From positions 1-55,326 of the forward strand of contig NZ_AULM01000026.1 in assembly GCF_000422285.1 (NCBI RefSeq): 55,326 nt of DNA, read 5' to 3'. Positions 2,417 through 4,876 of this stretch are shown one piece after another; position 1 is the first letter of the stretch, and every line of letters begins with the position of its first letter. Both the position numbers and the translations under genes were made by a program. This stretch comes from Desulfatiglans anilini DSM 4660 (GTDB taxonomy: Bacteria; Desulfobacterota; DSM-4660; Desulfatiglandales; Desulfatiglandaceae). A model generated the notes under the pieces. That model saw nothing but the letters and a program-made list of their open reading frames with translations, had not been told where the DNA came from and ran no database searches.

Positions 2417-3592
2417 TCAGGCCGGCTGTTTATTGGGATAGAGCGGTGAAATGTCCCGCAAGGTCGTGACCGCACCCCTCAGTGCCTCCAAGAAACGGAC
2501 GATGTGCTCCTCCGTATTCTCGATGCCGAAAGTGATCACCAGGGTACCCTGGGCATCCGCGAACTCCCGCCCGATCGAAAGCAGCACGTGGGAGGCCTGC
2601 AGCGCCCCCGCGGCGCATGCGGAACGGGTCGAGACCGCGATGCCCTCCTCATCCAGCATCAGCACAACGCTCTCCCCCTCGATGTACTTCACTGAGACGG
2701 ACAGGAGATTCGGCAGACTGAACTCGGGATGGCCGTTGATGATGAACTCATCGATGTAATTCGGCAGTTCCTTCAGGAGGAAATGCTTCAGCCCGGCTGC
2801 ATGCTCGGTGCGCCGGGACATATCTCGGAGGGCCAGTTCCGCGGCCATGCCCATCCCGACGATACCAATGAGATTCTCCGTCCCAGCTCGCTTGTTATTC
2901 TCCTGAACACCGCCGTCAAGCAGCGGCCAGATGCTCGTTCCGCGGCGGATGTACAAGCCCCCGACCCCGGCCGGACCGTAAAAGGTATTGGACGCGAAGC
3001 TCAAGAGATCGACCCCGAGATCCTGCACATCCACAGGGATGACACCGACAGAGTCCACGGCGTCGCTGTGGAACGTGATCTTTCGCTCCCTCGTAATGGC
3101 GGCGATTTCCCTTATGGGCTGCAGCGTTCCGATCTCATTGTTGCTGTGCATGATGCTCACGAGGATGGTCTCGTCTTTGAGGGCCCTCGCCACATCATCC
3201 GGATTCACCCGGCCGTCGGAGTCCACGGGTACGGACGTCACCTGGTAATCCATCAGTTTGAGCCGGCGAAGACTTCGAAGGACGGCATTGTGTTCTATAT
3301 TGGAGGTGACGATGTGCCTGCCTTTGTCCGCCTTCGCGAACGCTACGCCCTTGATGGCATGATTGATGGATTCGGTCCCGCTGGATGTGAAAACCACCTC
3401 TTTTTCCAGAGCGCTGTTGATCAACCTTGCCACACGTCCGCGCGCCGCTTCGAGCGCCTCGGCCGCACCATCCCCGAGGCGATGCTGACTCGAGGGGTTT
3501 CCGAAGGTCTCCCTCATTACGCCGATCATCGCGTCCTGCACCTCGGGCAGAAGCTGATTGGCCGATAGATGATCCAGGTTGACGATCTTCAT
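2417..3592 (-). CDS. NifS/IscS-like class V aminotransferase-fold protein lacking the PLP lysine
   Basis: A 391-residue protein clearly of the NifS/IscS family: N-terminal NLDHLSANQLLPEV, TSSGTESINHA, SNIEHNAVL (the PLP-stacking His), HSDAVDSVG, RAGTEN and the sulfur-carrying loop STRSACAAGALQ. Three usual active-site residues are changed. The SGHKFYGPKG segment reads SNTFYGPAG (codons AAT ACC), so the Schiff-base Lys is Thr; the Gln after DAV is Asp; and the SSIRFSLGR segment reads GTLVITFGI, removing the Arg that holds the cysteine carboxylate. Classical desulfurase activity is therefore doubtful, though the mobile Cys is intact. The start at 3592 follows GGAAGGGAGG; a 19-residue upstream extension is possible. 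It lies 26 bp after the nifU-like gene. An Archaeoglobus fulgidus IscS with Asp for the Lys is a known precedent. Confidence 0.9.
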   Translation of the reverse strand: MKIVNLDHLSANQLLPEVQDAMIGVMRETFGNPSSQHRLGDGAAEALEAARGRVARLINSALEKEVVFTSSGTESINHAIKGVAFAKADKGRHIVTSNIEHNAVLRSLRRLKLMDYQVTSVPVDSDGRVNPDDVARALKDETILVSIMHSNNEIGTLQPIREIAAITRERKITFHSDAVDSVGVIPVDVQDLGVDLLSFASNTFYGPAGVGGLYIRRGTSIWPLLDGGVQENNKRAGTENLIGIVGMGMAAELALRDMSRRTEHAAGLKHFLLKELPNYIDEFIINGHPEFSLPNLLSVSVKYIEGESVVLMLDEEGIAVSTRSACAAGALQASHVLLSIGREFADAQGTLVITFGIENTEEHIVRFLEALRGAVTTLRDISPLYPNKQPA

Positions 3593-3618: not shown

Positions 3619-4131
3619 TCAGTGCTCGGCAGTCAGATCCGTCTGACACGCCTTACAGAAGGTCACCCCCTCGGGGACCTCGGCATCACAGTAGGGGCAG
3701 TAGCAGTGATCGCCATGGGTATGTTCGTGTTTCTCGCTCCGCTTCGGAACCTTCGGCTCCATCCCTGCCTTCCGGTCTTCATAATCCTTGATGGCCTGAT
3801 GAAGCGCATCCGCGCCGAGGTTGGAGCAATGCAGCTTGTTCTTGGGCAGCCCTTCGAGCGCCGCGGCCACATCCTTGTTCGAGATCTTTTTGGCCTCTTC
3901 GATGGTTTTTCCCTTGGCCATCTCCGTCAGCATGCTGGATACGGCGATGGCGGCGCCGCACCCGAACGTCTGGAATTTGATATCGTCGATCCGTTCATCC
4001 TTGATTTTCAAATAGATGCTCATCATGTCGCCGCATAGGGGATTGCCCACCTCCCCGAAGCCGTCCGGGTTTTCGATGACGCCCACATTCCGCGGGCTTT
4101 TGAAATGATCCATCACCGTTTTCGAGTACAT
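3619..4131 (-). CDS. IscU/NifU-type Fe-S scaffold with C-terminal zinc ribbon
   Basis: A 170-residue protein. Residues 1-125 are an IscU scaffold with its three cluster cysteines (GNPLCGD, TFGCGAAIA, LHCSNLG) and the Asp after the first. A His-rich linker (HEHTHGDHCYC) leads to a CPYC-x10-CKAC zinc ribbon at the C-terminus, not part of standard IscU or NifU. It assembles transient [2Fe-2S]/[4Fe-4S] clusters in the cytoplasm. The start MYSKTVMDHF follows GGGAGGGG; a 16-residue upstream extension lacks such a site. It is first gene of a two-gene operon with the nifS-like gene. The zinc ribbon may recruit a partner or shield the scaffold; this is inference. Confidence 0.9.
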   Translation of the reverse strand: MYSKTVMDHFKSPRNVGVIENPDGFGEVGNPLCGDMMSIYLKIKDERIDDIKFQTFGCGAAIAVSSMLTEMAKGKTIEEAKKISNKDVAAALEGLPKNKLHCSNLGADALHQAIKDYEDRKAGMEPKVPKRSEKHEHTHGDHCYCPYCDAEVPEGVTFCKACQTDLTAEH

Positions 4132-4444: not shown

Positions 4445-4876
4445 ATGACCAAGGCAAAAAACGGCGACAAAGCAAAAGTTCACTACACCGGCAGGCTGGA
4501 AGATGGAACTGTCTTTGACAGTTCCAACGGGCGGGAACCCCTTGAATTTACCCTGGGTGAAGGGCAGCTGATTCAGGGCTTCGAGCAGGGTGTCCTCGGC
4601 ATGCAGGTGGGGGAATCCAAAACCGTCACCATTTCGCCTGAAGAAGGCTACGGACATCCCAAAGAAGAGTTGAAAGTGACGGTCAGCAAGACCGACTTTC
4701 CGGCCGATATCGAACCGGAGATCGGACAGCGCCTTCAGCTTCAGAATATGCAGGGCCAGCCGATCCCCGTGATCATCAGCGCCGTCGAAGGGGAGACCGT
4801 GACCCTGGATGCCAATCATCCATTGGCCGGCAAAACCCTCCATTTCGATCTCGAACTGATGGAATTGACCGCATGA
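4445..4876 (+). CDS. FKBP-type peptidyl-prolyl isomerase, SlyD-like
   Basis: A 143-residue SlyD-type FKBP: VHYTGRLEDGTVFDSS opens the fold, followed by GQLIQGFEQGVLGMQVGE, the EEGYGHPKEE turn and an inserted-in-flap chaperone domain (about residues 70-120), closing with LAGKTLHFDLELMEL. It catalyses proline isomerisation and acts as a folding helper in the cytoplasm. The metal-binding His/Cys tail of E. coli SlyD is absent. The start is preceded by AGGGAGGATTCA. Monocistronic, with its own promoter and terminator. Confidence 0.95.
   Translation: MTKAKNGDKAKVHYTGRLEDGTVFDSSNGREPLEFTLGEGQLIQGFEQGVLGMQVGESKTVTISPEEGYGHPKEELKVTVSKTDFPADIEPEIGQRLQLQNMQGQPIPVIISAVEGETVTLDANHPLAGKTLHFDLELMELTA

Follow-up and report, generated by a model that had tools for sequence, protein, structure and literature searches.

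A bacterial family of NifS/IscS-like proteins with five replaced active-site residues, encoded next to IscU in Desulfatiglans anilini and other bacteria

Textbook iron-sulfur (Fe-S) cluster assembly by the ISC and NIF systems starts from a cysteine desulfurase. The closest described system to the locus analyzed here is the IscS of Archaeoglobus fulgidus (IscS2; structures PDB 4EB5, 4EB7 and 4HVK, and the D199K mutant 4R5F), which a title cited in PMC7585200 reports to be without desulfurase activity and whose Cys321 is described in PMC7585200 and PMC9769115 as a ligand of the [2Fe-2S] cluster on IscU. The IscS1-IscU1 pair of Methanosarcina acetivorans, likened to our locus by its published description, is also an iscSU pair with an IscS1 reported to lack the catalytic lysine (PMC7585200); it differs in being archaeal and in having four uncharacterized genes clustered with it. 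The Minimal ISC System (MIS; e.g. MisS-MisU of H. pylori) likewise consists of two genes, for a NifS-like protein and a scaffold, with no dedicated carrier, but is described in PMC12192291 and PMC10653786 with a cysteine desulfurase, whereas the pair studied here has the scaffold and has lost the desulfurase centre. Finally, the SMS system (SmsC-SmsB) is reported in PMC12192291 to dispense with a cysteine desulfurase and to assemble Fe-S clusters from mineral sulfide, but it uses an unrelated SufB/SufC scaffold and contains no NifS-like protein. A non-desulfurase IscS is already known in archaea; what is new is a large uncharted bacterial family, here paired with a zinc-ribbon IscU. No described family of desulfurase-like proteins lacking the lysine in bacteria was found in the open literature.

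The DNA analyzed (the window) is a contig stretch of 55,326 nucleotides from Desulfatiglans anilini DSM 4660. The features relevant to this work are the following.

2417..3592, minus strand: NifS/IscS-like gene without the catalytic lysine, 391 aa; start ATG 3590-3592, stop TGA 2417-2419
3560..3562, minus strand: Ala11 (GCC), replacing the N-terminal Thr of (S)ATT that is invariant in lysine-containing relatives
3053..3055, minus strand: Asp180 (GAC), replacing the PLP-binding Gln
2984..2989, minus strand: Asn202-Thr203 (AAT ACC), replacing His-Lys with the PLP Schiff-base lysine
2615..2617, minus strand: Cys326 (TGC), the mobile-loop cysteine (sulfur carrier or cluster ligand), present in 137 of 137 lysine-less relatives
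2537..2539, minus strand: Val352 (GTG), replacing the substrate-carboxylate Arg
3619..4131, minus strand: IscU scaffold gene, 170 aa (NifU_N, E 1e-49; TIGR03419 above cut-off)
3646..3699, minus strand: C-terminal zinc ribbon (CPYC...CKAC) of IscU (weak match to Pfam Zn_Ribbon_1, 20.3 bits, cut-off 25)

The first-pass annotation had correctly placed the NifS-like gene at 2417-3592, but the plus-strand frame is interrupted by stops there, and the open frame of 391 residues lies on the minus strand. In profile searches the protein matches Aminotran_5 (E 4e-69). Its top NCBIfam model is NifS TIGR03402 with 430.6 bits, below the cut-off of 530.75, and no other NifS/IscS equivalog cut-off of NCBIfam is reached either; two IscU-linked relatives that contain the lysine (L091 and L118) pass TIGR03402. 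The dN/dS ratio of the gene relative to the sister species is 0.058, and the gene is thus under purifying selection.

Inspection of the active site bore out every point that had been noticed at first: Asn-Thr stands at the site of His-Lys, the Arg of the SSIRFSLGR motif is a Val, the Gln of DAVQ is an Asp, and the Cys loop, the PLP-stacking His (His101) and Thr73 of the GTES loop are present, as are Asp177 and Arg235. In E. coli IscS numbering, Lys206 corresponds to Thr203, His205 to Asn202, Gln183 to Asp180 and Ser203 to Ala200. The replacement of the N-terminal Thr by Ala11 is a fifth active-site loss that had been overlooked. The internal-aldimine lysine, its adjoining histidine, the PLP-binding glutamine and the substrate arginine of a desulfurase are consequently all missing, and the persulfide cysteine is present. 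As suspected from the start, the protein is probably not a classical cysteine desulfurase, judging from the five lost positions.

Relatives were drawn from contigs of 84,980 species, from a set of 61 genomes in which relatives of D. anilini are included, and from about 250 genomes of the phylum. After removal of partial proteins, 242 full-length relatives were aligned together with the window protein and A. fulgidus IscS; 137 of them are lysine-less and 105 contain the lysine, a ratio which does not reflect natural frequency, since the window protein served as the seed of the collection. Gln and Arg are missing and Cys is kept in all 137 lysine-less proteins, whereas Gln, His, Arg and Cys are all kept in 103 of the 105 others. 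A scan of all columns returned exactly five positions that are at least 90% conserved in the lysine-containing and less than 15% in the lysine-less proteins, namely T11, Q180, H202, K203 and R352. His101, Asp177, Arg235 and Cys326 are conserved to 100% in the lysine-less proteins, and Thr73 and Thr238 are mostly retained. Such a signature would be expected from a loss of cysteine binding and Schiff-base chemistry if the PLP pocket, the fold and the Cys loop remained under selection. The lysine itself has given way to Gln (55 proteins), Pro (33), Thr (28), Ser (11), Asp (8), Ala (1) or Ile (1); thus Thr, whose frequency at this site had been of particular interest, accounts for 28 of 137 as one of seven replacements. 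No compensating lysine is conserved near the site in the lysine-less alignment, and the only frequent lysines in the body of these proteins are Lys81 (95%) and Lys90 (85%), both distant from it in sequence.

Some individual relatives deviate from this pattern. Three lysine-less proteins (L090, L093 and L250) have retained the His before the lysine site (His-Gln). A NifS-like protein encoded next to IscU in a member of the Thermodesulfovibrionia (Nitrospirota; L089, 3001-4161) has kept His-Lys, with Gln replaced by Ala and the substrate Arg by Val; its loop reads ASTCTM, which is unusual, and it may represent an intermediate or a third state.

The A. fulgidus protein had been cited as a parallel for the loss of the lysine. 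The parallel also holds for Gln, His, Arg and the N-terminal Thr, which are replaced in A. fulgidus IscS2 by Ala, Asn, Leu and Ala, respectively, the Lys being replaced by Asp, and is thus stronger than initially stated. Furthermore, both proteins have the NifS fold, are 43% identical and keep the Cys loop, H101, D177 and R235, and the bacterial members of the A. fulgidus clade, like the window protein, are encoded next to IscU. When L031, a relative within the same taxonomic family that has Asp at the lysine site, is used as the phmmer query, A. fulgidus IscS2 is the best solved match. With five replaced sites, a retained Cys, retained PLP-holding residues and a gene adjoining an IscU with C, D, C and H/C, the window protein appears to be a bacterial counterpart of the A. 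fulgidus protein. On the other hand, A. fulgidus IscS belongs to a separate, well-supported clade, carries Asp at the lysine site instead of Thr, Pro, Gln or Ser and Ala instead of Asp at the Gln site; the IscU of the window, moreover, carries a zinc ribbon in its C-terminal part and is encoded ahead of the NifS-like protein.

In a tree built without the Q, S, H, K and R columns of the active site, the window protein belongs to a lysine-less clade supported by a bootstrap of 99 and an SH-aLRT of 95, with 37 sampled rows from Desulfobacterota, Nitrospirota, Aminicenantota and Elusimicrobiota. A second lysine-less clade (100/100) is formed by A. fulgidus IscS together with Asn-Asp proteins of bacteria that belong to the same order as D. 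anilini. This placement in two supported clades indicates that the losses are ancient and few and not a recent accident. A single joint clade is not rejected (p-AU 0.875), and a common origin of the window clade and A. fulgidus IscS would be allowed. The AlphaFold2 model of the window protein (pLDDT 91.1, pTM 0.89; pLDDT below 50 at 228-230 and in the Cys loop 325-329, with the last ten residues also weak) superimposes on 4EB5 with a Z score of 51.3 and an rmsd of 1.6 Å over 374 residues. Human and E. coli desulfurase complexes match the model at similar Z; thus, the fold alone cannot separate active from inactive members.

A gap of 26 bases separates the NifS-like gene from iscU, which lies upstream on the same strand, so that both form a two-gene iscU-nifS unit. 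The encoded scaffold keeps the cluster residues C33, D35, C58, H101 and C102, which are retained nearly always in the IscU partners of the family. Within the clade of the window protein, iscU is the first gene, and the four-Cys C-terminal ribbon occurs in 92 of the 94 IscU partners that show this order; in the other lysine-less clades iscU is the second gene. H. pylori MisU has a different architecture. The early proposal that the NifS-like protein is a partner of the adjacent scaffold agrees well with the finding that 128 of 137 lysine-less genes adjoin iscU, as compared to 42 of 105 lysine-containing ones (p 3e-20, Fisher, without correction for relatedness); some of the nine genes without such a neighbour lie at contig ends or in short fetched stretches. 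Besides IscU, no conserved neighbour, including any sulfur-supply gene or carrier, was found across 51 related loci, in which thioredoxin occurs nine times, ferredoxin and USP twice each and FKBP never. In the window, a thioredoxin gene (2065-2397, CGTC motif) is convergent with the NifS-like gene, an FKBP-type peptidyl-prolyl isomerase gene (4445-4876) is divergent from iscU, and a 126-residue open frame without Pfam match (467-847) lies upstream of a small ferredoxin gene. According to PMC10653786, the levels of MisSU in H. pylori are affected by SlyD, an isomerase related to the FKBP type.

We consider it fairly probable that the window protein is a non-desulfurase partner of IscU with NifS/IscS fold, in which Cys326 serves as a cluster ligand while sulfide or a separate donor provides the sulfur. 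The protein would serve the IscU encoded immediately upstream as a dedicated partner, both structurally and chemically, and the two are predicted, by analogy to A. fulgidus, to form a complex resembling IscS2-IscU2. PLP would probably still be held, non-covalently, as a structural cofactor. The PLP independence entertained in the first-pass annotation is unlikely, since the PLP-holding residues His101, Asp177 and Arg235 are invariant in 137 of 137 lysine-less proteins; the A. fulgidus complex 4EB5 is moreover described with PLP in PMC9769115. As in the A. fulgidus homologue, Cys326 may swing into the IscU assembly site (C33, D35, C58 and H101/C102) as a transient cluster ligand, and no sulfur would be taken from L-cysteine by the NifS-like protein. 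Sulfur may instead be supplied by sulfide, or by persulfide or sulfide produced elsewhere.

Acceptance of sulfide for assembly on IscU is plausible. The genome (4.67 Mb, 107 contigs, 98.7% complete) contains dsrA and is thus that of a dissimilatory sulfite-reductase organism by gene content, and a link to sulfate reduction had been suggested. Among 61 genomes of the order, dsrA scores above cut-off in 47; the lysine-less gene is present in 25 of these 47 and in 9 of the 14 dsrA-negative genomes (Fisher p 0.55, without correction for relatedness). A tie to sulfate reduction is therefore rejected within the order. As a simple sulfide model predicts a link to dsrA, the missing enrichment counts against the simple version of this model.

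The supply of sulfur from cysteine by other enzymes has to be weighed against a non-desulfurase partner using sulfide. The genome also encodes two lysine-containing relatives, namely a stand-alone NifS whose active-site residues are all present (G000:C26:39638-40717) and a group II enzyme (G000:C5:144593-145489). The stand-alone NifS and other class V enzymes could supply cysteine sulfur, which counts against our main reading, as does the position of A. fulgidus IscS in a separate clade. In a persulfide relay, Cys326 would take sulfane sulfur from a separate lysine-containing desulfurase, e.g. the NifS on contig C26, and pass it on to IscU, which would make the protein a carrier of sulfur and not just a ligand. 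The invariance of Cys326 would fit, as would the presence of a lysine-containing NifS away from IscU in nearly all genomes of the order that carry the lysine-less gene. However, this NifS is unlinked to the operon and in the order mostly has another Cys loop (GAACHDRSV), and one genome with the lysine-less gene (G041, a fragmented MAG) showed no strong lysine-containing relative, so that we regard such a relay as rather unlikely.

A PLP- or PMP-dependent enzyme catalyzing another reaction with non-covalently bound coenzyme, as in the lysine-less dehydratases of the DegT family, would explain why His101, Asp177, Arg235 and mostly Thr73 and Thr238, which contact the PLP ring and phosphate, are retained. 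The substrate Arg and the catalytic His, Lys, Gln and Thr sites have nevertheless become variable (Q, P, T, S, D, A or I at the lysine site), so that no new catalytic set is conserved; Cys326 is the most constant reactive residue and the genes are bound to iscU. This alternative appears quite improbable to us, as does a residual slow cysteine desulfurase activity with exogenous PLP: the 2012 PDB title of 4HVK terms A. fulgidus IscS an unusual L-cysteine desulfurase, but the later title cited in PMC7585200 reports it as inactive, and the substrate-carboxylate Arg is missing in 137 of 137 lysine-less proteins. Gene decay or a sequencing or assembly error, e.g. at the AAT ACC codons, could be suspected only from the loss of catalytic residues and from one relative (L018/L088/L191, G011:C333), whose frame is split in two in a draft assembly so that its Cys and Arg sites lie on the second part. 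The data refute this alternative: the same sites are lost in a protein 98% identical to ours, encoded in another genome of the genus, and in over 130 loci retrieved from many assemblies, the dN/dS ratio is low, and the Cys and structural residues are invariant.

Beyond the single locus, we propose only tentatively that a deep, catalytically emptied NifS family in several bacterial phyla, together with IscU, constitutes a cysteine-independent ISC-type machine using iron and sulfide, possibly of an origin shared with A. fulgidus. If this is true, IscU-based Fe-S assembly in such organisms needs no cysteine desulfurase. General profile matching would label the iscU-linked gene a cysteine desulfurase, although its residues argue that it cannot be one; cysteine-dependent Fe-S assembly should hence not be inferred from annotation alone. 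The isolated A. fulgidus case gains a widespread family with a five-residue signature in many anaerobic bacteria, and bacterial proteins are now on offer for testing sulfide as the sulfur source of IscU.

Further genes resembling those of Fe-S assembly are found elsewhere in the genome. A SufC-like and a SufB-like gene form a pair with no SufS, SufD or SufE next to it (L260, 2984-4718; G000:C10, near 45.5 kb). Its scores do not reach the NCBIfam thresholds of SufC, SufB and SmsB, and the terminal tail of the SufC-like protein contains a Cys (CSYGDVCEGESDAKCYR). The SMS system with the same two-gene layout has been shown to use sulfide (PMC12192291), and it is suggestive of a sulfide source that neither this pair nor the IscU pair has an adjacent desulfurase. 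A SufB-like protein in a frame of 424 residues stands alone with no adjoining SufC (L259, 3839-5110; G000:C5). At another locus (L194, 3608-5921; G000:C9), a NifU_N-like protein of a scaffold-like family different from the window IscU comes, as judged by eye, after dinitrogenase iron-molybdenum cofactor-like proteins and directly before two MinD/Mrp-type ATPases that carry ferredoxin inserts.
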